From the IMG/VR virus record IMGVR_UViG_3300028595_000002, positions 1 to 50,015 of that record: a DNA stretch of 50,015 nt; one strand, written 5' to 3'. Made by a program: the position numbers and the translations under genes. Positions within the stretch are counted from its first letter, which is position 1, and each line of letters opens with the position of its first letter. This stretch comes from a virus. Shown piece by piece: positions 10,022-50,015 of this stretch. The notes below the pieces were generated by a model. It worked only from the letters and a program-made list of their open reading frames with translations, had not been told where the DNA came from and searched no databases.

Positions 10022-12430
10022 CTAAAAGTATTTGAAGATAATCTTAGGTCTTTTTAATTCAAATAACATCCTCATAGCCATACAGTCACTAAAATCTGGG
10101 GATCTTCATAATCTCTCCTTAACTAACTCTTTCCCTTCTATAGCAAACTTTCAATCCTTGTCTAGGTCTTTTATTTTAATCTGTAATAGCTCTTGGGTTA
10201 GTTGCTCCTTAACAAATTCATCACAATTCACATGAACTATTCATAGTTTTATTTGCTCACATAACTTAAAATAACATTGAGATTTTAGATTGGCATAATT
10301 AGCCCTTTTTGCTAAGTCTTTAGTTGCTCTCCTCTCTTCTATAGCTCTAGCATTATTGATAAAACCCCTACATCCTCTAATTTGATCTATTACTCAACCT
10401 CATAATCAATCCTCATCAATTACTATATGGTTTCTTGGGATATTATTTCACATAGAAATACGTATTATTTGCTGTGCCAACTCTTGTAAATCTGTTTTCT
10501 TTTGATGAAAAACCTGTAAAACAGTTAATCATCTCCAAAGCATTATTACGGTTTTGTCATTACCCTTTCTGGCAACATCACAAGATAGATAAAACTTCTT
10601 ATCCTCATCTATAGTAGAGTCTTTCTTGAAAATACTTGAAACTGAATCTATATCCAATAACAATCAATCTTCATCTGAATATTCAAAATTACCGTATAAT
10701 AACCTCTGAACTGTTACGTGATCTCATTTCTTTAAATTATCAACGTATTCTTTCTTGATACTAGGATTATCGGTTACTAAAGCAGGTACAAACGCTTTAG
10801 TGGGTTCTAAATTGCCTTCTTTATACGGTTTGTAGTAGTCATAATAAATCCAATTCCTCGCTGGATTACAAGTAAATAACATTTTAGGTATAGTTTCCCA
10901 ACCTTCACCAGATAAAACCGAAAGTCTTCATCTCAAAACACTGATACATTTGCTGTTGATCTCTTGGGCTTCATCTAAGAATACGCCAGTAAGTCAATAA
11001 CTTCATAATCTGTCGAAGTTAGGATCAGATGGTAAATTCTGTAGGTCAGTTAAAAATATTCGTGATCAATTTTGAAATTCTATTACTCAATCCAAAGCGT
11101 TATATTTGTAAAAAGGCTTCTTTAACCCTAACATCTTTATGATATCAAATAAAGTTATCATAGTTGTTAGTTTTAACCTCTTTAGCTCACATCTTCAAAT
11201 TAACCATTGCGAACCGTTGTACTCTAAGCACTTACTAACTACCCAAAAACATCAGATATAGCTATTATGAGTTACCATGAAATCGTTAGTTATATACAAT
11301 CAATCATCTTTAGAAACTGTAATACATTGTGCTTCTTGTTTTCATATATATTTAATGTTTTTTATAACTAAACCCATTCTACTTCTACCACCTTGATATT
11401 TTGTTCATCTATCTTTTTTTCTTGTTAAATTAAACAATAAAGATCTATCAGACAATGTAACAATAACTTCGTAATATACTCACCGTCTTTTCTTTCATTT
11501 ATAAGTACAAAATTTATTAACAGTAATTAAATTAGCCCTACCTCCTATACTTCTTATTAAATATTGAAAATCTAGTGCTAATTGTTTACTTTTTGCAGTT
11601 AAAGAACATCTTCAGTTTGTTCAAACAGTTCAATCTGTATCCATTAACCCTTTTATACATTGACTCCTAGTATATAGGTCTCCTTCCATTATTTGTCTAG
11701 GTATTTTTTTCTTTTCACATCTAACGCCTTTCATTCATAACTCATTCAAAATATCATTCATTTTCGATCATAAATATCACTTAGCTTTTCTATAACTGCT
11801 AAGGATTCTATAAGCATATTTACGTCAATTGTACTTTGATATAGAAATTCATTTTGGTAACAAACGTTTAAAGCTATCTATTAATTCTTGGTCTTCAGTT
11901 GTAAAAATAACTGCTCCAGTAGTAAGTCATCAATCTCATAATAAAGCACCTACTAAATAAGGATGTAATTTTGTATAAGGTTTTCAAAAATCTAATGCCT
12001 CACATGTTGGAATCTTTATTTTTATTCATCTATCAAAAAAATCCTTTATCTCCCTAAGACTTCTATTAGCTAATGTTTTTTGTCATCTTTTAGGTTTCCA
12101 ACTTAACCATAAATGATCCAAACAACACCTAACCTTAATTCAAGTATCAAACTCAACTTCGTAAATATCTTTTTTTCATTGAGGATGTATTGCTATTACT
12201 TTTGTTGTTCATCAACTTGGACTAATTAAAGATTGTCATATCTTAATCTCTCACATCCTGATCCATCAGTCGGGCGTTAGTATTTTACTATATAAAGGTT
12301 GTGCTTTTCAACCTCTAGCCCCACCTCAATACAATACCTCATTCGTTTTATTGTCATTTAGTAATTGCAAAGCTTGGTACTGCTTAGCAAAAGGCTTAAA
12401 TTCAACGATATGGTTTTCTTGTGATTTCAT
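10022..12430 (-). CDS. terL: Terminase large subunit interrupted by an intein
   Basis: An 802-residue precursor. Residues 1-42 and 390-802 form a normal 455-residue packaging motor: Walker A GGARGGK (36-42) continued by S390, Walker B GVFLDEAQ (482-489), and a nuclease domain with acidic residues at D618, D672-E673 and a final SPDFSDC (778-784). Between K42 and S390 sits a 347-residue intein. The ATPase translocates DNA into the capsid and the nuclease cuts concatemers. ATG at 12428-12430, TAG at 10022-10024; it starts 10 bases after terS. Very many glycines are TGA, including one in the Walker A loop. Removing the intein gives a continuous GGARGGKSYIG, which strongly supports the boundaries. 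Confidence 0.95.
11264..12304 (-). other. Class 3-like intein with LAGLIDADG endonuclease
   Basis: Residues 43-389 of the TerL precursor. The N-terminal splicing block is AQPLYSKILTPDGW and the C-terminal end is MVTHN, followed by Ser+1 of the extein. Residue 1 is alanine, not Cys/Ser/Thr. A Trp in block B (W108 in DHLW), a Cys in block F (C369 in AQCITV) and a Thr before the final HN (T387) match the WCT set of class 3 inteins, in which the block F Cys starts splicing. Two LAGLIDADG motifs, LVGALLGDGGL (about 159-169) and GLMDTDG (261-267), show a homing endonuclease. TGA encodes several of the motif glycines, so the element is adapted to the recoded host. Activity is inferred. Confidence 0.9.
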
Positions 12431-14076: not shown

Positions 14077-14140
14077 TTTGTTGACTTTATGTATTTTATG
14101 GGATAATTTAGAATAAAAAAAGTTTTTATATATGTTTGAG

Positions 14141-14340
14141 ACATCCTAAATTGTATCCTAAAGTATCCTAAATTGTATCCTAAAGTATCCTAAATTGTAT
14201 CCTAAAACCTATCCTAAAATATCCTAAAGTATCCTAAATTGTATTCTAAAGTATCCTAAGTTAACCTAAATCCTAACCTAATACATCCTAACTTCTACCC
14301 TAAAGAACCTTAATCAATATCCTAAAGTATCCTAATGTCT
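14141..14340. repeat. Iteron-like array of TATCCTAAA
   Basis: About 15 copies of TCCTAA, mostly within TATCCTAAA and spaced about 11 bases apart, alternate with TTG and G spacers. The array degenerates to the right. It lies in the divergent gene-poor region ahead of the early promoters, so binding of a replication initiator or early regulator is plausible. Confidence 0.7.
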
Positions 14341-14425
14341 ATTTTATAATACCTAATAGTTAATATAAGAAGTGTTGAAAGTATATTTATAGTTTATACC
14401 TTATTATGTAAAAAGTATTCTAAAT

Positions 14426-17709: not shown

Positions 17710-17976
17710 ATGAGAACTAAAACTTTAAACAATCCTAAAAAGGATTTTCTAAATCAAAAAGAATTGGAATACTTATTTTATATGAGTTGGAGAAGTATTT
17801 GAATCCATCTACAAAAATATATTCCAAACACCATAAAAAGTCATCAAAGGCACTATAAGAAAAAAGACCTATATGAATTTATAAAGAAATACAAAGATAA
17901 ACCTAGAATTAAAGCTCTGAACTGGGAGATGTTCAATAAAGAATTTGCAGATTTCCCAAAAATAGAAAAGAGCTAG
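17710..17976 (+). CDS. Helix-turn-helix-like protein, 88 aa
   Basis: MRTKTLNNPKKDFLNQKELE, then a helical region with SIGIHLQKYIPNTIKSHQRH that could be a helix-turn-helix, and a basic C-terminus. One TGA glycine. ATG at 17710-17712, TAG at 17974-17976. DNA binding is suggested, not shown. Confidence 0.6.
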
Positions 17977-18981: not shown

Positions 18982-20175
18982 ATGAAATCTGATAACAAAA
19001 TAAAAGGTTACTGTGTAATACCAGTTGTAATACTAAATGATGAAAACCTAAAAGCAAAAGAACGCCTTCTTTATGGCAATATTTATAGTCTATGCCGTTC
19101 TTGTTGATATTGTCGGGCAACTAATAAATATTTAGCAGATCTAATAAATGACTATTCTTGATGAAAAAAAACACACAAAGATACAGTTTCTAAATATATA
19201 GCTAGTTTACAGAAAGCTTGATATATCAAGTGTGAGTATGTATACGAATGAAAGAAGATTAAAGGTAGAAAGATCTATTTAATGGGTGTAACAGACCTTG
19301 CAACATGAATATATTATGAACTATCAGAGGAAGAAGTAATGACCAGACTAACTACTAGGTCTACAGAGCTAGGGGGGTATAGCTCTACAGATCATGAGGG
19401 TATAGCTCTACAGATCAAAGGTAACAAGATAAACAATAACAAAATAAATAATAAAAAAGAAAAAGAGGTCTCTCTTTCAAAAGAAGAAGAAAAAACACTT
19501 GCTAATATTAATTCTAACCCTAGCAAAAACTCTAAAGAATCTAAGGAATCCCCCATCTCTCTGGATGTAGCAAACGTAGAAGAAGCTCAACAGTCTGTAC
19601 AGACTACAAGTAACCCCTTACGTGTGAACAAAGAAAAGAAAAATTGCGTTAAAAGAAAAGAAATAAAGTCATTGCTACCAGTAGGCACTACAGCAGAAAA
19701 CATAAGCGATGAACAATTTCAAGAGCTTTGTAGAAAATTTAGGACTCTATCAGAATGAGATAGAAAAATTTTGCAAGAAAAACTAAAAAGTGTTAGCATT
19801 AAATTAATAGAATACTGGAACGATAAATCAGATGAGTTTATACCTTGAACCAAAATAAAATATTGAATATGAAAAGTAAGATTATCCGCACCTTGAACAC
19901 AAAAAAAAGTATATGATGGATTATATACCTTGTTAATAAAAGAGAAATTTACGCTTAAAGACCTTAAACATTGTTTAGTTGTTTATTTGTCTGAATTAGA
20001 GAAATCCCCAGATAGGTTTCGTATTTGATGACTTGTAGCATTTATAACACAAAAAAACTGAATGAAATTAAAAGTCACAGAAAGCATAACAGATAAACCA
20101 AAGCAAAAATACTCACAATTCAAACAAGACACAAAAAACGACCCATATTGACGTGCAATCAGAATAAAAGGATAA
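18982..20175 (+). CDS. Replication initiator-like winged-helix protein
   Basis: A 397-residue protein. Residues 1-110 resemble phage replication proteins with a winged helix (VIPVVILNDENLKAKERLLYG; a turn with TNKYLADLI; then DTVSKYIASLQKAGYIKCEY). A charged, probably unfolded middle (about 135-235) leads to a C-terminal domain (DEFIPGTKIKYGIGKVRL onward) with basic residues near the end. ATG at 18982-18984, TAA at 20173-20175. It precedes primase and helicase, so initiation or helicase loading is likely. A 25-base duplication at about 19372-19421 is read in two different frames. Many glycines are TGA. Confidence 0.7.
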
Positions 20176-20226
20176 ATCATACCTAAGAGTTTCTAAGTCT
20201 TCTAAAAACACCCTTTAAATGAGTTT
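20175..20226 (-). repeat. Dispersed 53-base repeat, copy C
   Basis: Reverse-strand copy of the element at 13788-13840 and 45164-45216. It fills most of the gap between the initiator-like gene and the next gene. Read on the plus strand it would encode LLKTPFKGV, like copy B, but an in-frame stop precedes it. Confidence 0.7.
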
Positions 20227-20245
20227 ATAATATAAAAAAACAAAA

Positions 20246-20500
20246 ATGAAAAATACATATGAAGATTTTACAAAATGTATAGAATGTAAGAAGAAATATT
20301 TATTTTGAGAAGTTGATAAATGTAAGAAATGTGGAAGTACTAATTTTGTAGAATTTATTTACATCTGAAAATCCAGATACAATATTTATATCAGATCTGT
20401 TAAGTTAGATAAGGGAGTTTTTATTACAAAACTAACAGCAGAGCAATTATTCCCTAATAAAACCGACTATGTTCAAGGAACAACTAAAAAAAACTGCTAG
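20246..20500 (+). CDS. Zinc-ribbon protein, 84 aa
   Basis: CIECKKKYLFGEVDKCKKC gives two CxxC pairs, a rubredoxin-like zinc ribbon, followed by a β-rich C-terminal part (YNIYIRSVKLDKGVFITK). ATG at 20246-20248, TAG at 20498-20500; it overlaps the primase gene by 32 bases. The overlap suggests it works with the primase, perhaps supplying the zinc module that many primases carry at their N-terminus. Confidence 0.65.
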
Positions 20501-21542
20501 TTTACTAGAGAACTTACAGCAAACTAGCAGTATCTGAAAAGATATAAACTCATGAAAAAACCTAGAGGTTAATAACCTCAAAAGTATTATTAAAGATCCA
20601 TTAGAGCAAATCTTAAATAATACTCACAAGGAAGATATCTATTTTCTAGCGTGAGTCAAGCCTAATTTAAACAAAAGAGCTTGTGATAATGATATTTTAT
20701 TTAAAAACTATTTTTTAATAGATATCGATATTAGAAATAATATGCAAAGTTTAGGCTTAGAATGTACAAATAATGAGATTATAGAAGAAGGGAAGGATAT
20801 TTGAAAATATTTACAAAAACTCGAACAATTCAAAGATCGGCAAGCAATAGTGTTTTCTTGAAATGGTTTACATATCTATTATGTATGAAAACCACAACGG
20901 TTAGATATAGAGATAAGATCAGTTGAATATAAGCTAGGAGTACAGCAAATATACGAAGAGATAGAAAGCTATCTTTGAAACAACCCAGCTTATAAGATAG
21001 ATTATGCTTGCTCTAATGTATGAAGAATCGCCAGACTACCTTATACTGTAAATAGTAAGAATTTAGCAGTAACTAAAATTATAGAATTTAGAGAAAATAA
21101 GAAGTCTACACTATTAGAAAAACTAGTAGCAAAATCAGAGGTTCAATTATTTCGTCAGTTCAATAAAGATGTAAATAGGAGAAAAGAGGCATGGTTAGAA
21201 TATATAGGTAAGAATAAGAAGCTAGATATTACTAATAGAGATAAAGATAATTTTAAATATATAAATGAAAATATAGAAGCTTGGAGAGTAGCAGAAAAAA
21301 TACTCCCAAATTTTAAGTTTGACTGAAAAAAGAACTTCTTAAATGAGAAGCGTTGATATACTTGATACTTTTACTCTGAAAACCTTAATGCTATTATAAA
21401 TTGATGATCTAGGCATTTTGCTTGGTGATCTGATAGTAGTTGATGGAGTCCAACAAATATAATAAGAAATCAATTTGACTATTCTTGGTGAGAGGTATTG
21501 AATTGGTTTGATAAGGAATTCAAAAATTTAAAACTAAAATAA
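20469..21542 (+). CDS. Archaeo-eukaryotic-type primase
   Basis: A 357-residue protein. It has the catalytic DxD of AEP primases (FLIDIDIR, D85 and D87) and the SGNGLHIYY motif (S130-H135) that binds nucleotide. A third region (RIARLPYTVNSKN) fits the conserved arginine/asparagine segment. The enzyme makes primers at the fork and some relatives also polymerise DNA. ATG at 20469-20471, TAA at 21540-21542, 4 bases before the helicase gene. Several motif glycines are TGA. No separate DNA polymerase was found, so a primase-polymerase role is possible. Confidence 0.8.
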
Positions 21543-21546
21543 AAAC

Positions 21547-22551
21547 ATGGAAAATATAAATCAAGACTTAAATAACCTATCTAAAAATGTAGATAGGAAT
21601 ATAGAGAATAAAAACTTTATGAGTTTAATGGATCTATTCGAGAAAACTAAACTTGAAAGAAGGTCTAGGAACATAAATAATATCATAAGGTATTGAATAG
21701 GTTTGTTAGATGATTATTTATGATGAATATTAGAAAATGAATTAGTAGTAGTAGGAGCTTGAACAGGAATTTGAAAAACAGAGATAGCAAATTCTATTGC
21801 TATCCATAACGCTAAAAGAGGGTTTAAAGTAAACCTATTGGCTCTTGAATGAGACCCTTGAGAAATCTATTATAGATATATTCAATGAGAGATAAATAAG
21901 AAGTTGGCTTGAATGAAGTATATCAAGCCACAAGAATTTAGATTAAATCTAGTGGATATAGAGGCAATAGAAGATGAAGTGGTAGCAAATACTCCACAAT
22001 CCTTAAGAGATAACTTAAAGATATATTGAAAAAAAGAAATACCTAATCAATCAAGGTTAGAAGATATTTTTACTGAATCCGTAGAAGATTGTGATTTAAT
22101 AGTTTTAGATCATCTGCATTACCTAGATTATAATTGAGAATCAGAGGCTAGAGGTATTACAGGAATTATGAAGATGGTTAAGATGGCAACAGAAATTTTA
22201 AGAGTACCAGTGGTGTTAATATCACATCTATCAAGGAACTTATCATGAAGACCTAAGATATCAGACCTTCATTGAAGCTCAAATATAGAAAAAAACGCTA
22301 ATACTGTAATTTTACTTAACCCTTGTGATTCATCTGAACTAGTCAATAATTTAGAAGATTGAAAATATTATCGATGAACTGAAATAATAGTTGCTAAGAA
22401 CAGAACAGGTGTGCCAGTACCCGCAGTTTTTGAGACTCATTTTAACTTAAAAACTAAGGAATATATGAATTGAGAAGACTTTAATTTACTATCCCCAGAT
22501 GAGACTAACAGGGTTTCTATAGATGATAAAATAGACTCTATAGTATTTTAG
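21547..22551 (+). CDS. DnaB-like replicative helicase
   Basis: A 334-residue RecA-fold ATPase. Walker A is GAGTGIGKT (70-78), with two of its glycines encoded by TGA; Walker B is LIVLDHLHYL; later come VVLISHLSRN and NTVILLNP, matching motifs of DnaB/RepA-type helicases, and KNRTG as the arginine-finger region. The usual DnaB N-terminal domain is missing, so it is a core-only helicase. ATG at 21547-21549, TAG at 22549-22551. It follows the primase by 4 bases, and the pair probably forms the primosome. Confidence 0.82.
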
Positions 22552-22611
22552 GAATAAACAAGGTATTAGTCACTTTAGTATTTTTTTAATGTTTTTTCAT
22601 TAAAAAATTTG

Positions 22612-22662
22612 CTCTAATTATAAAAGTATGAGATAATATACTTACTCAATTAGAGTTTTTTT
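22612..22662 (+). terminator. Terminator after the helicase
   Basis: CTCTAATT (22612-22619) pairs with AATTAGAG (22648-22655), with AAGTAT/ATACTT inside, followed by seven T. It ends the primase-helicase transcript. A promoter for the next genes may overlap it (TATAAA at about 22619) but is not clear. Confidence 0.65.
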
Positions 22663-22682
22663 ATTATTTTAACTAAGTAAGT

Positions 22683-22895
22683 ATGAAAAAAGATTTTGTG
22701 TTTTATAGGAAATATTTCAATCTTTTCTATCAAACAAAAAAAGAGGTTAAGGATTTGAAAAAGGAACTAGAGAAGACTAAAGCAAAATTAGAAGAGGCTA
22801 GAAAAAGCTATAGAGAGGCTTTGGCAAGCAATAAGGAATTTGCCGAAAGTATTATAAATATTTTAAATTCTAACAAAGAAAAAATATGAGTTTAA
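22683..22895 (+). CDS. Coiled-coil protein, 70 aa
   Basis: MKKDFVFYRKYFNLFYQTKK leads to a continuous charged heptad helix (VKDLKKELEKTKAKLEEARK). It ends at TAA 22893-22895 after one TGA glycine. The 3' end overlaps the next start. It may be an oligomeric accessory protein. Confidence 0.65.
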
Positions 22896-23122
22896 ATATA
22901 GGTTTTTATGGTAAGTATTTACAACAAACTTACCCATGAAGTAGTGTAAGAATATATGCTAACCATCATGAACTACAGTTACGATTAAAGTGACCAGATC
23001 AAGGATGTTATCAAATAAGATGAACAGAGGAGGCAGTAAAAGATGAGGTTTATAGGTTATTGGTTAGGAATGGTAGAGATTTTAAAGAATTTTTACCTTA
23101 TTTAAAAGAACAAAATGATTAA
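22886..23122 (+). CDS. Small protein, 78 aa
   Basis: MSLNIGFYGKYLQQTYPGSS, with several TGA glycines and a helical C-terminus (DEVYRLLVRNGRDFKEFLPY). It overlaps both neighbours by a few bases, as in a compact operon. No family recognised. Confidence 0.65.
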
Positions 23123-23348
23123 TTATAAAGATATATACTCTTTGTATATAGACCACAAAAAAGCAGATGATTTTTTTAGAACTATACAAGAAGCATATCC
23201 TTGAACTGATGTAATTTGAGATTGACCAGGAAGTTTAGCTATGAACTTAAAAATGTGAGATAAAAGATTTTTAATAACCTGAAATTACTGGAAGGTAAAG
23301 GATCAGGTTTTCCAGTTATTGAAAAACCAAAAACAATTTAAAAATTAA
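23115..23348 (+). CDS. Small protein, 77 aa
   Basis: MINYKDIYSLYIDHKKADDF followed by a region with TGA-coded glycines (VIGDGPGSLAMNLKMGDKRF). ATG overlaps the previous stop by 8 bases. Ends in a basic helix. It lies directly before the RusA-like gene. No family recognised. Confidence 0.65.
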
Positions 23349-23364
23349 ATCTTTAAAGAAAACA

Positions 23365-23781
23365 ATGAAATTACCTATAGAGATACAAATAAGTAAGAAA
23401 AAAAGAATAAATCTATCCTTAAATTGGTATAGAAATGCTTACTTTAGGATTCTTAATCAAGTTAAGAAAAACTATTGTAATTTATTAGAGGAGCAAATAT
23501 CAAAAGATGAACTAGTAAGGATAGATTGACCAGTAGAAGTAACCTATAAGGTATTTTATAACAATAAAAGAAGAAGGGATATTATGAATACTATATCAGT
23601 TATTGATAAATTCTTTTTAGATTGGTTGGTAGATAAAGAGATAATAGAAGAGGATAACTGGCAAATAGTTAAAAAGGTTTCTATTGAATTTTGATGAATT
23701 CTAGATAGAGAGCAAAAACCTTATGTAGAAGCTAATATAACTAAATATGATAATGAGGATCAGGATAATTGAGAGGCTTAG
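23365..23781 (+). CDS. rusA: RusA-like Holliday junction resolvase
   Basis: A 138-residue protein. The core RRRDIMNTISVIDKFFLDWL with DKEIIEED after it keeps the acidic set of RusA (here D72, D81 and D97, with N75 in place of the usual DN), which binds metal and cuts four-way junctions symmetrically. β-strands before it (PVEVTYKVFY) fit the fold. ATG at 23365-23367, TAG at 23779-23781. It would resolve recombination or replication intermediates before packaging. The acidic residues are not all in the canonical spacing, so the call is good but not certain. Confidence 0.75.
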
Positions 23782-23908: not shown

Positions 23909-24460
23909 ATGGAAAAAACTAAATTTATAAATTTCTCATGAAAAACAGGTAAGTTTGACTTTTATAACTTCGATGAGAAAACAAACGAAGAATTTAACTT
24001 CGATAAAATACATATAACTTGACTAGGTTTTCAAATAAAGGGATTTACTAAACCCTTTGGCGGTACTAGTCCTAGTCGTTTCTGATGGAGTAATATCGTT
24101 AGTAGTTTCGCAGAAAAGTTTATAGTAAAAGATAAAGAATGAATAGAGTTGATGGTTTGTGAATGATCAGAAGCGAGTGAAAGAATAAAAGGTACAGGAT
24201 TCGAAATATTTCTTTGTATAGATGCTTTAGTAGATTGAGTTGAATGTTCTTTTAGGATCAAGGGAACAGGTGCTAGACAATTCTACAAAGACTTTAAATT
24301 AAACGACTGAATAGAAGAAGCAATTTGATATGAATGTGAAGTTAAAATTGAGGAGGTGAACTGACAATACCATTATTTTGTACCTAAGTTTATAAAGCTA
24401 GAAAAGAAGCCTATACCAGAAAAAGAACCAGAATTAGATATGGCGGATGTGCCTTTTTAA
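23909..24460 (+). CDS. ssb: Single-stranded DNA-binding protein
   Basis: A 183-residue protein. A β-rich body (FINFSGKTGKFDFYNFDE; YECEVKIEEVNGQYHYFVPK) ends in a proline/glutamate linker and the acidic tip DMADVPF, the standard SSB tail that recruits replication and repair proteins. ATG at 23909-23911, TAA at 24458-24460. It stands between the resolvase and the array-nuclease gene. The body is divergent, so the call rests mainly on the tail, the β pattern and the neighbours. Confidence 0.72.
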
Positions 24461-24475
24461 AAAATAAAAACTATT

Positions 24476-27400
24476 ATGGAAAATAAAATAAAATCTAAAA
24501 AACAGATACAAAACGAAAGAGACCTCTTAACAATTGGGGAGGTTTCGGAAACTACATGAGCTACCACTAAACAAATTATAAAGTGGTGTAGAGAAGGTAA
24601 AATTACTAAAAAGTTCGTTAGTCAGAAGGTTATGTTGTTACCCTCGGCGATACAAGAAGTTTGTCAACTAATAACAGAGGATTTAAATTGAATAGATAAT
24701 GAGACCAATTTTTCCTCCTATATGACATACGAAGAAACACAAAAGTTTCTAGATATATCTATTGATGAAGTTTTACTTCTAATAAATCATAAGTTTTTAA
24801 AATATCATGAAACATGATTAATATGAAAAGAGAGTGTATTAAGATTATCAGGCAAAATATATCGTAGAAGCCAATATTATGATTATTTTAATATCTCCGA
24901 AGCATCCAGACATCTTACATTAACAAAGCCAGAAATTAATGTATTATTAAAAGATAATATTATAAACAAAACAATTAAATGATATTTCTTACGAAAACAG
25001 GACGTAGTATATGAGGTATTAATATATCCAGAGGATATTGTGAAGCTAGAAACAGCAATTAAATATATAAAAAAAATTAAAGATTTTGATAAATTAACAC
25101 CTAAAGAACGATTAGATAGTATTAAAAGCTTTTACAAACAATCTTATAATAAATGAAAAGAATTACTAGAAGATTGAGAGGAGACAATAACCCAAGCGGA
25201 GGCAGCGGAACTTTGTCGAGTTTCAACGACTTTAATTTCGAGAGCGATTAAAGATAAAAAAATAAAAACAAAAAAGGTAGGTAAATGTGTAAAACCCTTA
25301 AGGAGTTCTGTTTTAGAATTTAAAAAAACTTTAAAATTTAAAAAAGATTACCCTGGTTATTTAACTCTAACAGAGGCTAGTAAAGAATTAGGTTTTAGTG
25401 ACAATTCTATAAATAGTCGAATAAAATCATGAGAAATAAAAGGAGCTATAAAAAATGCAATTCGTGATACTTGAGGTTCTTGTACCCTAATCCCCCTATC
25501 AGAAGTAGATAAACTTAAAAAGACCTTAAAATTTCAAAAAGATTACCCTGATTATTTAACTATAACAGAGGCTAGTAAAGAATTAGGTTGTAGTGACAGG
25601 GCTATAAAAACTAGAATAAAATCATGAGAAATAAAAGGAGCTATAAAAAATGTAATTTTTGATACTTGGGGTTCTTGTACCCTAATCCCAAAATCAGAAG
25701 TAGATAAGCTAAAAAAAACCTTAAAATTTCAAAAGGACTATACTAATTATTTAACTTTAAAAGAAGTTAGCAAAGAATTAGGTTGTAGTGGGTGAACTAT
25801 AAATAGGCGAATAAAATCATGAGAAATAAAAGGAGCTATAAAAAATGTAATTCGTGATACTTGAGGTTCTTGTGTTCTAATCCCCCTATCAGAAGTAGAT
25901 AAACTTAAAAAGACCTTAAAATTTCAAAAAGATTACCCTGATTATTTAACTCAAATAGAGGTTGGTGAAGAATTAGGTTGTAGTGGCTGGACTATTGGTA
26001 ATAGAATAAAATCATGAGAAATAAAAGGAGCTATAAAAAATGTAATTTTTGATACTTGAGGTTCTTGTACCCTAATCCCCAAATCAGAAGTAGAGAACCT
26101 TAAAAAACAATGGCAAAAAAATAAAACAGACCACACAAGAGACAATCAAGATAGTATTAAAAGCTTTTACAACCAATCTTATAATAAATGAAAGGGATTA
26201 CTAGAAGACACGGAAGTTACTTTGACACTGCAAGAAGCCGGGGATCTTTGTTGAGTTTCATGTACCTATATGTTTGAAGTAATTAAAAATAAAAAAATCA
26301 AAACAAAAAAGGTAGGTAGTTGTAGAAGACCCTTAAAAAGTTCTGTTTTAGAATTTAAAAAAACTTTAAAATTTCAAAAGGACTATACTAATTATTTAAC
26401 TTTAAAAGAAGTTAGTAAAGAATTAGGTTGTAGTATAGATGCTATTTCTGAGAGAATAAAATCATGAGAAATAAAAGGAGTTATAAAAAATGTCATTTCT
26501 AATAATTGAAAGTCTTGCACACTAATTCCCAAATCAGAAGTAGAAAAACTTAGAAAGACCGTAAAAACTCAAAAGGACTATACTAATTATTTAATTACAA
26601 AAGAAGTTAGTAAAGAAATAGGTTGTGGTACAACGTATATTTATAGTAGAATAAAATCATGAGAAATAAAAGGAGTTATACAAAATGTCATTTCTAATAA
26701 TTGAAAGTCTTGCACACTAATTCCCAAATCAGAAGTAGAAAAACTTAGAAAGACCGTAAAAATTCAAAAGGACTATACTAATTATTTAACTTTAAAAGAA
26801 GTTAGTAAAGAAATAGGTTGTGGTATAACGTATATTTATAGTAGAATAAAATCATGAGAAATAAAAGGAGTTATACAAAATGTCATTTCTAATTCTTGAG
26901 GTTCTTGTACCCTAATCCCCCCATTAGAAATAGAGAAGTTAAAAAAACAATGGCAAAAAAGCAAACAAAAACCTATAGAAGACAATCAAAACACTGTCAA
27001 ACCATTATTAATTGACAATGAGGAACCTAAAAAAGAAGAAGAAGAAATCAGAATACCGAAAGAAGCAACAGAAAACCAAAATAAAATACCAATTAACCAA
27101 GTAGATATGGATAAAGAAAGTAAAGAAGAACTAGAAAGTAATATAAAGTTTTTCTTCAAAGAGATCGAAGAGAAGTACCAAAATAACATATTTATACCTA
27201 ATAGTTTAGAATGAATATTTAATTTACGGAACAGTAGGCTTAAAGGTATGGGAGAGATAGACAATATAATAGACTTAGCAAATGAAAAACAAATAGAAGA
27301 AACTAGACAAGTTATTAGACCTTTTACAGACAAAGCTTTGTCTACTTGAATCACTAAATACCTTAAATGGATTAAAAATATAAAGAAGAAAGGTAGGAGT

Positions 27401-28072
27401 TTTTACATAAAGAGTCTTGTCGACTTTGTGACTTCTAGGAATGGACTGATAAAGTTTTTAAGGGGATCTGAAGGGATAGATAAGATATTTACTCCAGATT
27501 TCCAAGATAGAGAACCTTTGTATACATCAGAGCCTCAGATAGCAGGTAAGAAGATAGAGCAAATGCTTTGTGATGTCTTAGAGGGTAAACTAGATGTCGA
27601 CAACCCAAAAGACGAGTACGAGACATTAATAAAACAGGTTGTCAATAATAAACAGTTCGACAAATTGTTGACAAGAGGACTGTTTTGGAAAAGATATAAA
27701 AACATAGACAGACAAAAAGAGTATATCAATAAAGCAGGTAAGAAGTATGCGATTACTGATATAGAGCTAAAGGATACTGTAATAGATGTAAAAGCCACTA
27801 GGTCGTACACTATAGAAGAAGTAAAAGCTAAGTATTACGATCAGATGTTGAAATACTTTAATTGCTCTTGAGGTAAGAAGGTAGTGATCGTTTATATTAA
27901 TATGAGACATCCTTATTGAGTTGATATAATCGAATATGACTTTTGAATTAAGGAGCGTTTACAATATTTTTGGAACTACATTAAGTTTATTTTTTTAAGT
28001 TATTTTATTAAGAAGAACTGTAATAAGAATTGTAGGAATTGTAAAAATTACCATTGGTGTAACTCGAAATAG
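24476..28072 (+). CDS. Tandem HTH array fused to a RecB/Cas4-like nuclease
   Basis: A 1198-residue protein with no TAA or TAG in frame. About 12 helix-turn-helix units of the MerR/excisionase type fill residues 16-831. Units 5-8 (292-551) and 10-12 (637-831) are 65 residues long with a near-invariant scaffold (LTxxEASKELGC, then RIKSGEIKGAIKN and SCTLIPxSEV), while the predicted recognition helices differ, e.g. SDNSINS, SDRAIKT, SGGTINR, SIDAISE, TTYIYS. Units 4 and 9 head two larger blocks. An acidic linker (832-900) leads to a nuclease domain with VIDVKAT (D1104, K1106), QMLKY (Q1123-Y1127) and a C-x3-C-x2-C-x5-C cluster (1182-1195) like the Fe-S end of Cas4/AddB. I infer sequence-specific DNA binding plus cleavage or end processing. 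The target is unknown. Confidence 0.85.
25349..26968 (+). repeat. 195-base coding repeats with variable recognition helix
   Basis: Units begin at 25349, 25544, 25739, 25934, 26384, 26579 and 26774. Blocks such as AGAATAAAATCATGAGAAAT are almost unchanged in all. The hypervariable window is about 24 bases, just before that block. A second level of repetition, GATAGTATTAAAAGCTTTTAC at about 25117 and again at 26151, marks duplication of a larger block. Confidence 0.85.
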
Positions 28073-28201: not shown

Positions 28202-28792
28202 ATGAATGATGAAATTAAGATACCAATAAAACTAGTCAAGCGAGACAAAAATTGACAATTTAAAGACTCTAGGGTTGTCAATGTTGACAAGCGTTGGCTT
28301 GATAGAGAAGCCCAAATACAAGGTTTTGTCGAGGAACTAAAAGATATCCAAGATTTGAGCAAATGTGGTTTGGATCTGTCCCCAACAGAGGAAAGCCATG
28401 AAGATATTCAAGATCAAGAGGAATCTCTTGATAATACCGAACAAACTAATTCTTTTTTTGATACCCATAAGAAGAGATTAGAAATTATTAGTTGAATAGG
28501 AGTATTCGCAGTACTTCTATTGTTACTAATAATACAGAAACCAAGTGAAAGCTCCAAAAGTTCTGCTATGGACTTAGAAGAATGATCTTGAGCAGGTATA
28601 AAATTTGACATTTTAAAGCAGGAATTAAACACGCTTGATGATGAGATAATTAAGGAAATAGAACTACAGAAAAAAATTAGAGAGAAGAAAAAGGAATTAA
28701 ACTTAATCATAGATGATAGCAAGAGAAGAGTCAACGATATTCAAACCAAAAAAAGAGGGGTTGAATCTAAAATTATTCTTTTATGAAATTAA
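28202..28792 (+). CDS. Membrane-anchored coiled-coil protein, 196 aa
   Basis: Polar N-terminal half (residues 1-97; charged, with acidic stretch around EDIQDQEESLD), one membrane helix at about 100-118 (GIGVFAVLLLLLII), then a long coiled coil (KQELNTLDDEIIKEIELQKK and on). ATG at 28202-28204, TAA at 28790-28792, 1 base before the lysozyme gene. The build resembles spanin or lysis-associated envelope proteins but there is no firm family match. Confidence 0.65.
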
Positions 28793-28793
28793 T

Positions 28794-29324
28794 ATGAAAA
28801 CAATTTTGATGTTGATTTGAATACTGATAGCTGTATTGATAATATCATTATTCCCTTTACAGGATAGCCAATGATCTTATAGAGAGCCTCATGATATACA
28901 AAGGGCTTTTATAATAAGAGAGACACAAGATCGGTTGGAAGTGTCTAATATGCTTACTATTTTGAATATGGAATGTGGACGTGAAGATTGATTTTGTATG
29001 TCTAAAACTAAAGATTGTTGACCTTTCCAAATTAATGTTGTCCATAAAGACTTATATAAAAGATGTCTAGTTAAAATAAAGAAATGAAAGAAAATAGAGC
29101 TTTTTAAGGAGCAATTAAAATTTGCCCTAAATTGGTATAGAAACTTAAAAAAGAAATACCCTAAAAAAAACACGAAAGAATTAGCTAAATTATTTTTTAA
29201 TAGATATAACGGTAGCTCTCGCTATGCAAAAAAAGCAATAAAGCTAAGAGAGATACACAAAAAGAACTTTAAATATCTTTATTACAATAACCAAAAACAA
29301 AAATGAATGATTTCGAAATGATAA
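28794..29324 (+). CDS. Lysozyme-like transglycosylase (SLT fold) with signal anchor
   Basis: A 176-residue protein. Residues 4-22 are a hydrophobic signal or anchor (ILMLIGILIAVLIISLF). The catalytic region has the general acid E60 in MECGRED, then GPFQIN (76-81), and a later FNRYNGSSRYAKKA, as in soluble lytic transglycosylase / lysozyme-type enzymes that cut peptidoglycan glycan strands. Four cysteines (61, 68, 75, 91) suggest disulfides outside the cytoplasm. ATG at 28794-28796; TGA codons near 29304 and 29319 are read through to TAA at 29322-29324. A signal-anchored endolysin or an entry enzyme; the holin-like gene follows. Confidence 0.75.
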
Positions 29325-30638: not shown

Positions 30639-31448
30639 ATGAACACAAATACAAATAAATACCCTATAGAACATTTAAGCCCTAGTTCTTTTAGATTGTT
30701 TTTAAATAATAGATTCGAGTTCTATAAAGCTTATATAAAAGGCGTGAAAAACTTTAAAACCTCTGAAGCTATGTTTACTTGAACTGTTTATCATAGTATA
30801 TTAGAGATGTTTTATAACCAAGAAAAAAGGGATAGTGCTTTTTTTGATATGGAAGAAGAACAAATTTTGTCTATAGCAAACGCAATAGAAGAAGAAAGAG
30901 AAAACAATATAGATAAAAAAGATGAAAAACGGATAGATAGGGTTGTTGCTAGTGTAAAAAAACTATTAACTTTTTATCAATCAGAGCTTCCAGACTATAA
31001 AGAGATATTAGGTATAGAATTGCTATTAAAAAATACCCCCAAGGGTATAACTATACCTTTTAAGGGTTTCGTGGATCTAGTAGTTAAGGAATGAGATGAA
31101 ATAATTTTAGTAGATCATAAAACAGTATCTAGATTTTCAAATAAAATCTCACCTTGATATATGATACAGGCTAATATGTACTATTTACTATACGTAACAG
31201 AATACAAACAAGCACCTAAATATATGTATTTCGATGAAATAAAGAAGTCTAAAAACAGAGACGGATCTCCTCAATTGAGAACTGTAAAATATAAATATAA
31301 TCAAAAAGATATGGTCTGATTTGCTAGGTTATTAGTATGAACCCTAAGGCAATTAGAGGTCTTTGGAGATAATCAAGATTTTTATTTACCTAACCCTTTT
31401 GATATGTTAAATGGAGAGCAATCGTTTCTTGAATATATAGAAATATAA
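30639..31448 (+). CDS. RecB-like PD-(D/E)XK exonuclease
   Basis: A 269-residue protein of the PDDEXK_1 / RecB-nuclease family. It opens with HLSPSSFRLFLNNRFEFYKA, followed by FTGTVYHSILE (motif with His), GFVDLVVKEGDEIILVDHKT (catalytic D, then DHK), and the helix MIQANMYYLLY (Q-x3-Y). ATG at 30639-30641, TAA at 31446-31448. A λ-exonuclease-like role in recombination, or DNA end processing, is likely. It is a second nuclease of this superfamily in the genome besides the array fusion. Confidence 0.82.
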
Positions 31449-33502: not shown

Positions 33503-35008
33503 TTAAGCTGATATATCTGAATATTTTAAATTAATTTTTTCTCAATCTGTTCAAGAAGCTCCATTGGTAGATACTGGAGTTCCACCTCATCATCAAGTTC
33601 ATCAACTTCCTCAAGTACTAGTTAAAGTTCAAGAAAAATTATTAGTATAACCAACTAATATAATTGCTCCTCAACTTCCACCTCATCATCAACCACCTCA
33701 TCATCAAGAAGCCCCTCAATTAGCACCAGTTCATCAATCACCACCATCTCATCAGTCTTCTCAAACGGTAGTTAAGTTTCCAGTTCAAGCGAAAGTATTT
33801 GCTAATATAACAATCCCAGCTCATGCTCTTCAAGGTACTCATCATCAACCACCTCATCATCAAGCTACTCAAGTATCGACATAGGATCAATTAGTTCAAT
33901 TAGCACCCAAAAGTCATCAAGATCCTCAATTAGCCGAGTCTCATGTAGCGGTTCTAGTAGCACCACCACCTCAACCTCATCAGAATATTCATGGCATTCA
34001 ACACCTAAATAATCAAGAAGCACCGTTGGTTATATCTTGAACAGTACCTCAATCCCCACCTTGAGAAATATTGATAGTTCAAGCGTTTCATCATCTTCAT
34101 CAATCCGCTATTCAAGTACCTGCTCCACTACCTCATCATCAATATCAATAGGTGCTACCAGTTCATCAAGTGGAATTTCATCATCAATTACCTCAAGTTC
34201 CTACATTATTACAACTAGCTTCTATTCAGAGTAGATTAGAAGTGATGTAGCTTTTATCTAAATAAGCACCTGTTAAATCTATATCTCAATCAATAGTACA
34301 AGTTCAAGAACATTTTAATCTTAAAACTCCAGTAGTGTCAGTAGTAGATAAAACCGCACCTGCAGATATATTAATAGATGAATAATTATAATCAGTATCC
34401 AAACTTAGATTAGTCGTTCAAGAAGTTATATTTAAGACTCCATCACTACCATCTCAAAATAATGCAGGGGTAGAAGAAACAGATGTTAATCAACTTCAAT
34501 CTCAAGTAAAAGAATTTCCTATAAAGTCAGTTTGTCAAGCTGTTCAAATTGTATGAGAAGAGGTTGAATCAGTCGCTATATCTATATCTCATTTAATTTT
34601 TACAAATTCCCTTTCATCTGTAATAGATCAAGAACTAATACTAGCAAGTGGTATATAGTTACTGCTAGGGTAACTTGTATCTGTTTGTATAGTCCCTATT
34701 CAAGTTCAATCTGCATTATTTCAAGATCCATCATTTATATTAGCTTGAGTAACTTTTATAAACACTTTCTTAGTTCAAGAGGTATCGATAGTGACAGATG
34801 AAGTATTTTCATAGGTTACTAAAAAACTTTCTTCTGGACTAGTATTAGTTCTAGTGACTTCTATTATAGCTTTTCAAGCTGATACAGAGTTTGTCGTAAC
34901 TTCTAATCAAGTTATTACTCATTCTTTTATTACGGAACTTCAGGGAAAACTAAAATGTTTATCTTGATTAATATTCGTTCCGTTTAGTAGTCATATTATT
35001 TCTGTCAT
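33503..35008 (-). CDS. Glycine-rich tail adhesin
   Basis: A 501-residue protein. The N-terminal half is β-rich fibre sequence (e.g. TEIIGLLNGTNINQDKHFSF). From about residue 275 it turns into poly-glycine runs of up to about 10 residues, broken by variable loops (such as IADGGRGGNAGTINISQ). This resembles the poly-glycine sandwich of T4-like gp38 adhesins, in which the loops contact the receptor. Most of these glycines are TGA, so the gene cannot be read in other codes. ATG at 35006-35008, TAA at 33503-33505. Last structural gene before lysis; the most probable host-range determinant, by analogy. Confidence 0.8.
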
Positions 35009-48255: not shown

Positions 48256-50015
48256 TTAAAATTTATTAACAATAAAACTTTTAGTCTCTCAAGAGACATT
48301 TTTAACTGTCCAGGTCTTCGTCCCTATTCAAAATCAACTAGTGGTAGCTTCAAAACTTCAAGTAGCAATTCAATCATTGAAAGTAGCCGTTCTACCTAGT
48401 ACTCAATCGTAATTAAATACCAAAGATGAAGTTTGAGGATTTGAACTTGCACTTGTTGTTTTTAGTGAAACTGCAATGTCAATATCATCTGCTACACTCC
48501 AAGCATCGTTCCATATTGTATCGCTAATAGCGTTAAATTGTGTTCAAGTTTGCTGGTTGGCTGTTACGGTTACGGCTTCTGAAATCGCTGCGTTTTGTTC
48601 ATTTATATTTGCAACTGTCCAAGTCTCCGCACCGCTTGCCCCTGTGTTGTAGCACCAAATCCCCTCTGTCTCTCCTGTTATTGCGTTGCTATTTGAAGCG
48701 ATATTTCTCCAAGCTACGGCGGTTGTGTCGTAAATTTGGAAAGTTACTTTGTCATCAAATGAAACTGAATAAAAAGCACTTTGCCCTGCTGTTGACTCTG
48801 TTACTGTTCCTGAATTTAAATCATCCCAGGCAGTAGTGTTAAATTGTCCTGTTGTGCTTGTTACTGCTGTGTAAGTTTGATTTTCTGGTGATGAACCTGC
48901 TCCGTAAGCTGATGTGGGGGGGGTGAAATTAGACGTCCATCTAGCAGTCTTAGAAATGCGTATTTCATCCAGATAACCATTATATGCACCAACATCAGAT
49001 GCTGTCTTGTAGAATCGTCCTATTGTAAGCCCGTGGTTACCATCGTTAATTGTTACGTTTCCACTACTCCAATTAGTAATTTGACCATCTATAAATATTC
49101 CTAAATCAGATACTCCTGTTCCTTTTCTTACTATTGCAACGTGAGCCCATGTATTAACAGATAAATTAGTGTCTGAGGTTGCTATTGTTGACCCTGTTCT
49201 ATCCATTGTTAAACCAACAGTCCCAGAACTATTCGCATAAATAATCCAATTGCCATCATCATTGTCAGATGTTGACAAAAATCCGTTCAGTGAATTTAAT
49301 GCTGAAGGTCTTACCCAGAAATCAATAGTAAAATTACCAGTTCCAAAATCAAAATCAGTTGAGTTAGGAGCTGTTAAATAATCCCCAGTCCCGTCAAAAT
49401 ACATTGAAGTTGTACCTAATTGTTGTTGTGCAGTTGTGTGAATCGCACCGCTTCTTGTAATTGTGTGAGTTTCACTTTTACCAACCGAAGTATCAATAAA
49501 ATTTGTATCTCCATCAAAAGTATTCGATTGAATTAAAAGCACTGTATCGCTATCATTTCCAATCCTAACACCATCACTTGTTAATTTAATCACATCATCA
49601 ACCATATTTGCCCCTCGTATCCAGTCAACATCATACTCGCCTGTTGCCAAGGTTGCAGTAGTTCCGTCATTGATTGAAAAAGCTACTTCATCAGTTGCTT
49701 CTCCGTCGTCTGTGATTGTGTTGATTGTGTAAATATTTGTGTCGCCGTTGAGTTGGAAGTTTACGTTTTCAATTACACGTGGTTCGTCGTTTCCTGTTCC
49801 GATGGTGATTGGTGCTGTTGATGTGTATGCTTCTGTTGGTTTCCCAACAACTGAAAAATCAATTGCTTCGCCTTTTTGGATGCGTAGATTAGCAATTTTC
49901 CCATCAAGATAATAATATGCATTAGAATACATCCTACCAATATTTATATTGCCAAAATCTAATGTGCCACTATCACTCCAGTCTGAACCAAGTTGAGAAC
50001 CATCTAAATATGCCT
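48256..50015 (-). CDS. LamG fibre protein 2, C-terminal part (joined to 1-1739)
   Basis: Continuation of the gene starting at 1739; position 49964 equals position 1. It holds the end of the first LamG region (GKIANLRIQKGEAIDFSVVG), a second LamG domain at about residues 770-915 of the whole protein (YLTAPNSTDFDFGTGNFTID; TWAHVAIVRKGT; GYLDEIRISKTARW) and a C-terminal domain nearly identical to fibre 1 (TTGQFNTTAWDDLNSGTV). It ends in a short tail with TGA glycines and TAA at 48256-48258. From 49963 down to 48547 there is no TGA, although glycine is common. Laminin-G-like domains usually bind sugars, so adhesion to host surface glycans is inferred. Confidence 0.82.
48450..48895. repeat. Fibre C-terminal paralogous segment, copy 2
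   Basis: Partner of 1950-2390. The high identity between two neighbouring genes allows recombination that swaps or deletes the LamG modules. Confidence 0.85.
49964..50015. repeat. Terminal overlap, right copy
   Basis: Exact copy of bases 1-52; see the left copy. Confidence 0.9.

Follow-up and report, generated by a model that had tools for sequence, protein, structure and literature searches.

What a phage may gain from joining a long string of helix-turn-helix (HTH) units to a nuclease-like region is the question raised by the open reading frame (ORF) at positions 24476-28072 (+) of the virus record IMGVR_UViG_3300028595_000002, the whole 50,015 bp of which are referred to here as the window. 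Its product, P0001, is open over 1198 aa under NCBI table 25, while 28 in-frame TGA codons break the frame under table 11. Since TGA stands in the core units of the array where HTH_17 has the conserved glycine of its "SGE" motif, it is read as glycine rather than as tryptophan; this code 25 is used by Gracilibacteria, Absconditabacteria and some of their phages (PMC10746230). Taken as a whole, P0001 is a real and striking protein that belongs to no family known so far. The explanation we lean towards, at somewhat less than an even chance, is that a covalent filament of winged HTH (wHTH) units of BldC/Xis type reads a long defined site in double-stranded DNA and holds a RecE/RecB-type nuclease-like domain there.

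The HTH_17 array ahead of the C-terminal nuclease-like region contains about 12 units, namely seven near-copies of 65 aa each and five degenerate units whose bounds were set by inspection. The near-copies, or core units, fall into a block of four (residues 286-545) and a block of three (residues 631-825), which at the DNA level are seen as tandem repeats with a period of 195 nt at 25320-26107 and 26367-26893. The first block consists of core units 1-2 (residues 286-350 and 351-415, positions 25331-25525 and 25526-25720) and 3-4 (residues 416-480 and 481-545, positions 25721-25915 and 25916-26110), the second of core units 5-7 (residues 631-695, 696-760 and 761-825, positions 26366-26560, 26561-26755 and 26756-26950), all on the plus strand like the other parts of the gene. 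A cap unit stands at the head of each block; the two caps are paralogues and share the leader DSIKSFY.QSYNKGK (at residues 214 and 559). Cap unit A (residues 214-285, 25115-25330) combines the leader "DSIKSFYKQSYNKGK" with an HTH at residues ~232-283 (HTH_17 at 25190-25327), and its paralogue, cap unit B (residues 559-630, 26150-26365; HTH at residues ~577-628), is 71% identical to it. The presence of a cap ahead of each block makes the array look like a duplicated block of cap plus units. Upstream lie three further units, the first of which is degenerate (residues ~17-62, 24524-24661) and is matched by MerR at residues 19-43 and by phrog_6401 at residues 11-44. The other two are putative: unit 2 (residues ~82-124, 24719-24847, bounds by inspection) with a weak match to phrog_668 at residues 60-114 (E=0.0015), and unit 3 (residues ~138-202, 24887-25081) with a weak match to the hidden Markov model of the core units at residues 133-168 (138-173 in ORF numbering). 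A charged linker recognized by inspection (residues 826-885, 26951-27130) separates the array from the C-terminal region (residues 886-1198, 27131-28069), a putative PD-(D/E)XK nuclease of RecE/RecB type.

The family assignment of the array is supported by PF12728 HTH_17 (Pfam, E=1.1e-50), matched in 8 stretches, and by TIGR01764 excise (E=3.2e-39), so that the preliminary description of a single 1198-residue protein with about 12 excisionase-like HTH units agrees with a frame open in code 25 and with eight HTH_17 stretches. Three core units modelled by AlphaFold2 (AF2), with an alignment built from the protein's own units only, reached a predicted local distance difference test (pLDDT) score of 84.4, and in every one of them the order is helix, recognition helix, wing hairpin, helix. 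Comparison of single units with PDB by Foldseek returned BldC (6ama) with a root-mean-square deviation of 1.8 Å over 55 residues, a target TM of 0.75 and a probability of 1.00; further matches were Pukovnik Xis, RdfS and RacA. That the units would prove to be HTH folds had been named beforehand as a check, and all three modelled ones adopt the winged form. Assignment of P0001 units to wHTHs of BldC/Xis type is thus very well supported by profiles and models. The array carries a net charge of +36. Matches to sigma factor, aspartyl protease, AbiEi and similar families are spurious and confined to the HTH region, and the PADLOC match to mad1 is due to the HTH_17 fold only. Among the best Foldseek matches in predicted viral structures, proteins of ~117-188 aa, none was seen to join a long array to a nuclease.

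The differences between the units of this one protein are not evenly spread. The five most variable of the 65 columns in the alignment of the seven core units are columns 24, 25, 26, 28 and 29 of the recognition helix. Of the 105 pairwise differences that these five could show, 93 are present, whereas the average column outside them has 4.9 of 21, and none of 200,000 random five-column choices reached their variation. Unit by unit the residues are DNS-NS, DRA-KT, GGT-NR, GWT-GN, IDA-SE, TTY-YS and ITY-YS, with an invariant and buried Ile27 between the two groups; this Ile27 and Gly34 are retained across the core units. The earlier statement that seven units of 65 residues are near-identical except in the recognition helix therefore holds with the nuance that identity to the first unit is 60-82% and that milder variation is found at columns 9, 13-14, 45-49 and 56. 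Alignment of a unit with BldC by hhalign is gapless over columns 6-37, which makes columns 25 and 29, both hypervariable, the equivalents of Lys26 and Arg30, the residues by which the recognition helix of BldC contacts bases (PMC5859096). Columns 26 and 28, equivalents of the phosphate contacts Thr27 and Thr29 of BldC, vary too, and column 32, corresponding to the phosphate-contacting Lys33, is invariant. Diversification of the units is centred on base-reading positions. The ratio of non-synonymous to synonymous differences (pN/pS) is ~2.4 at the five columns versus ~0.56 at the other sixty, in an uncorrected estimate over pairs that are not independent; core units 5 and 6 differ at 9 of 177 nt outside the helix (5%) and at 10 of 18 inside it (56%). 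Between columns 30 and 38 the units show nearly no differences, synonymous sites included. The same focus is found independently in the second class of units: cap A and cap B differ at 6 of 7 residues of the helix and at 18 of 77 outside it (Fisher p=0.0019, the helix window being set by register, not by search).

Such a pattern might also be left by relaxed or decaying sequence after recent duplication of units, with no functional specificity attached. The units are indeed recent copies, gene conversion could homogenise the remainder, and synonymous differences are slightly higher within the helix as well; however, the ORF is intact, Ile27 and Gly34 are kept, the variation avoids the buried isoleucine, and core and cap units share the helix focus, for which reasons we hold this explanation highly improbable. 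Targeting by a diversity-generating retroelement was considered and rejected, as the variable codons have no adenine bias and no reverse transcriptase was present among the ORFs scanned.

The C-terminal part was described beforehand as a RecB/Cas4-like nuclease, and separate profile searches of the two halves were proposed, which turned out favourably for the array and only partly so for the nuclease, whose assignment, though plausible, is the least secure part of that description. No Pfam nuclease family matches residues 886-1198, and the single profile that recognizes them is phrog_434, "RecE-like recombination exonuclease" (E=7.6e-4 against 38,880 families); when this family was searched across the window, P0001 was its only match (E=1.3e-4). 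By inspection, putative catalytic motifs were located at 27557-27793, comprising G1024xxxE1028, D1095 (27758-27760) and D1104-V-K1106 (27785-27793), followed by Q1123xxxY1127 (27842-27856); the presence of motifs alone is weak evidence, and their succession G..E, D, DxK, QxxxY is that of PD-(D/E)XK enzymes of RecB/lambda-exonuclease type. The predicted cysteine cluster of CxxCx5C type is present as C1186xxC1189x5C1195 within C1182-x3-C1186-x2-C1189-x5-C1195 (28019-28060). The likeness to Cas4 goes no further, since the fourth, N-terminal cysteine of Cas4/AddB is absent: no cysteine occurs between residues 886 and 1031, and the fourth one is either C1182, next to the triad, or C1032, which falls within the core. 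Membership in Cas4/AddB was accordingly rejected on the four-cysteine staple arrangement, which demands a cysteine N-terminal to the nuclease core; judging from its position, C1182 may be a local stand-in for the missing one. Comparison with known RecE-like enzymes gave a marginal outcome. A scan with the pattern VIDVK[AT]TR recovered RecE/DUF3799-like exonucleases, and P0001 aligned to a set derived from six loci and chosen beforehand for the DVK[AT]T motif with a value of 22.3, barely above the best of 60 shuffles (21.1). AF2 modelling of the C-terminal region alone from the single sequence gave a pLDDT of 34.5 and no usable fold.

These results allow a reading in which P0001 is a DNA-binding scaffold or regulator, its C-terminal region being inactive or not a nuclease at all and its cysteine cluster binding zinc for structure or protein contacts. 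The missing Pfam match, the low pLDDT, the marginal RecE similarity and the lack of any homologue speak for it; the phrog_434 match and the preserved order of D, DxK and QxxxY speak against it, and we regard it as unlikely. Catalytic competence of the region as a PD-(D/E)XK nuclease is, as far as motifs and profile allow judging, moderately probable.

The gene is placed, as anticipated, within a phage replication operon, with genes for a replication initiator (18982), a primase-like protein (20469, weak), a DnaB-type helicase (21547) and RusA (23365) upstream on the same strand (18982-23781, +). Its immediate neighbour (23909-24460, +) has no profile match and is SSB-like solely by an acidic ...DMADVPF tail noticed by inspection; a dCTP deaminase gene lies downstream. 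This setting suits a RecE-like, end-acting recombination exonuclease whose array would clamp DNA broadly instead of reading its sequence, a possibility favoured by the RecE-like profile, by the RusA and SSB-like neighbours and by the charge of the array. However, the phage has a separate PDDEXK_1 exonuclease at 30639-31448 (+) (PF12705, E=2.9e-16; phrog_1218/69), which looks like the enzyme filling the role of recombination exonuclease, and base-reading variation so focused is unexpected for a non-specific clamp. A scan for DnaB motifs provided one relative using code 25 (L024, DnaB E about 1e-64), which has no array. Its gene order is SSB-like protein, HNH endonuclease with HTH-like repeats, DUF3799 exonuclease. 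The exonuclease thus sits two genes after the SSB-like gene, which again favours the clamp; it nevertheless resembles the 30639 gene, with which it shares PHROG matches 1227 and 1706, and has no phrog_434 match. The nuclease of P0001 displays no similarity to either exonuclease by BLAST or hhalign. Because the L024 exonuclease shares PHROG matches with the 30639 gene and not with P0001, the latter can be argued to be an extra enzyme, and the clamp appears distinctly unlikely to us. The HNH endonuclease occupying the place of P0001 in L024 is compatible with a slot for mobile or selfish endonucleases.

A target within the phage's own DNA has also to be considered. In the intergenic segment 14143-14335 there are 14 exact copies of ATCCTAA, the first nine spaced by 10 or 12 bp, and CCTAA occurs 18 times in 14100-14400; the repeat array lies where the structural and early blocks of genes diverge, at a local minimum of cumulative GC skew, and is a candidate for origin iterons or a filament-binding site. 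The ORF at 17710-17976 (+) encodes an 88-aa putative excisionase-like/HTH protein (LNQKELEYLFYMSWRSIGIHL...) with no Pfam match, a possible binder of these repeats. P0001 could in principle process the origin or replication region, its array binding own phage DNA such as the ATCCTAA repeats and its nuclease nicking or resecting there to start replication or recombination. The location of the gene in the replication operon, the spacing, which approximates a helical turn and the 9-bp register of BldC, and the position of the repeats between divergent blocks at the skew minimum agree with it. On the other side, a uniform repeat predicts uniform recognition helices and the opposite is seen in P0001, the initiator (18982) and the small protein from 17710 are simpler candidates for binding, and the skew minimum coincides with the change of coding strand. 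Since identical DNA words need no different helices, the repeats are an attractive target by spacing and not by logic, and this explanation is rather unlikely.

Returning to the covalent filament that would hold a nuclease-like domain at a defined site, its operation can be sketched as follows. The units would dock head-to-tail in successive major grooves, each covering ~9-10 bp as extrapolated from BldC, so that the stretch of DNA occupied might be some 60-70 bp for the seven core units and about 110 bp for all twelve. Specificity of each unit would be set by columns 24, 25, 26, 28 and 29, and the whole string, not a repeated monomer, would define a long unique site, beside which the C-terminal region, tentatively taken as a PD-(D/E)XK nuclease, might nick, cut or start resection. 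The purpose is the least certain part: P0001 might cleave or resect competing or mobile DNA at a defined site, in the fashion of homing or exclusion endonucleases, and this role is favoured over housekeeping recombination because the phage has the separate PDDEXK_1 exonuclease. To the extent that sequence and fold can show it, the covalent string of individually tuned units is well supported; sequence-specific cutting by P0001 is an inference.

Several points weigh against this explanation. Apart from the absent Pfam nuclease match, the C-terminal model with no usable fold and the alignment barely above shuffled level, relatives of RecE and lambda exonuclease are exonucleases that depend on DNA ends and do not act as site-specific endonucleases. 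The AF2 model does not place the units relative to one another with confidence (predicted template modelling score, pTM, 0.54), so that head-to-tail docking on continuous DNA is extrapolated from BldC and RdfS. A target site for the array was not identified, and P0001 is a single example with no homologue, so that the helix pattern and the nuclease residues are those of this one protein. In IMG/VR, GTDB, GenBank phages and PLSDB no homologue was found by pattern-seeded scans, which may miss TGA-written glycine. Viral contigs were scanned with the whole protein, the nuclease, the array and the cap units, genome contigs with the whole protein and the array, while tblastn was run with the whole protein and the nuclease against phages and with the nuclease against plasmids. 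A scan for the IKSGEIK motif with glycine written as TGA gave 17 loci, none of them with an array.

A bolder proposal, which we advance quite tentatively, is that of a natural, evolvable modular reader made of concatenated wHTHs in place of TALE repeats or zinc fingers: each wHTH unit would read its own word of ~9-10 bp via five helix residues, the string would target the nuclease to a site of tens to about a hundred bp, and retargeting would proceed by duplication of units and replacement of helices. Very few modular DNA readers have specificity residues that can be exchanged (TALE-like repeats and zinc-finger arrays), and BldC-like wHTHs are known head-to-tail on DNA only as identical, non-covalent monomers. 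If true, a covalent string of near-clones would show how wHTH filaments become sequence-programmable and might offer a new scaffold with a directly measurable relation of unit to word, and, being joined to a nuclease and carried by a phage that infects little-known code-25 bacteria, it would point to an undescribed phage weapon or selfish element.

As for the genome as a whole, genes for portal, terminase, major head, tape-measure and endolysin proteins are recognised, and a 52-bp direct terminal repeat (1-52 and 49964-50015) indicates that the record is probably a complete, circularly assembled tailed-phage genome. Use of TGA is extreme in the ORF at 33503-35008 (-), where it accounts for 82 of 501 codons of a Gly-rich, tail-fibre-like product. 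The large terminase ORF (10022-12430, -, 802 aa) contains an apparent intein, ...GGARGGK|AQPLYSKILTPDGWIRMGEI...MVTHN|S..., which by inspection splits the Walker A region. A second repeat protein of the phage (15926-16582, +) matches DUF4116 (PF13475, E=1e-36) in seven stretches and consists of near-identical units of ~25 aa, NPSEEVKLEAVKQNGYSIQWIH, with a few variable positions. The ORF at 28713-29321 (+) encodes a protein that has a membrane anchor and a lysozyme-like CGREDGFCMSKTKDCGPFQIN stretch but matches nothing in Pfam or PHROG.

On what is already known of this build, the outcome agrees with the preliminary description: no described system combining a modular HTH array with a nuclease was found in the open literature. 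Its parts nevertheless have counterparts. The order of G..E, D, DxK and QxxxY and the CxxCx5C triad are common to P0001 and RecE/DUF3799/Cas4-AddB enzymes, to which the weak phrog_434 match also points; AddB/Cas4 have a C-terminal cysteine triad plus one N-terminal cysteine, and the triad likewise occurs in one DUF3799 structure (PMC3466216), whereas P0001 has no significant pairwise or Pfam match to them and is devoid of both the N-terminal cysteine of the iron-sulphur staple and the histidine of motif I. Homing endonucleases of HNH and GIY-YIG type with NUMOD1/HTH, common in phages, also pair a nuclease with HTH modules reading DNA and give weak matches via the HTHs, but they have one or two modules and other nuclease folds. 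P0001 was not assigned to them, as it has no HNH, GIY-YIG, LAGLIDADG or His-Cys domain and PHROG matches of HNH families cover the HTH part only, the rare PD-(D/E)XK homing enzymes being outside this rejection.

Arrays on other enzymes come from plasmids. A Paenibacillus plasmid protein (WP_063477672.1, 835 aa, L083:3878-6385) has an HTH_17 array with 5 Pfam stretches, and WP_253697285.1 (1127 aa, L099:1612-4995, in a record labelled Campylobacter jejuni plasmid) has one with 4 stretches and more by eye; no descriptions of such proteins were found. In both, the array is N-terminal to a recombinase-like region homologous between the two. This region was taken for a tyrosine recombinase from inspection and from the neighbours, not from a Pfam match, the former gene being flanked by two phage-integrase genes in a setting resembling a recombinase trio. 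The plasmid units are diverged, with neither near-identity nor focused helix variation, and are tied to P0001 by HTH_17 only; as independent examples of an array on a DNA enzyme they count in favour of the site-bound filament and suggest that the plan of array plus enzyme may recur.

RdfS, lambda Xis and Pukovnik Xis have the HTH_17/excise families and the fold in common with P0001 units, and RdfS builds superhelical filaments on DNA (PMC11963761), but these excisionases are single units without a nuclease, acting as recombination directionality factors. BldC of Streptomyces (6ama/6amk) is alike in the fold of each unit and in that its base-contacting positions are the variable columns of P0001; its monomers bind head-to-tail, one per 9-bp direct repeat, inserting the recognition helix into the major groove and the wing into the minor one (PMC5859096). 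In contrast to P0001, where non-identical units are linked covalently, BldC is a protein of 68 aa assembling non-covalently from identical units with no enzyme fused, so P0001 units are not members of the BldC family and may work like it. The suggested parallel with TALE proteins stands for the logic, a scaffold with varying equivalents of BldC base contacts, and not beyond it. TALE, BurrH and MOrTL proteins are indeed built of repeats of one scaffold whose specificity residues vary at fixed positions (PMC3978159), yet their repeats of 33-35 aa with a two-residue code read one base each and belong to an unrelated fold, which sets P0001 apart from TALE-like proteins: its 65-aa wHTH units are expected to read ~9-10 bp each.

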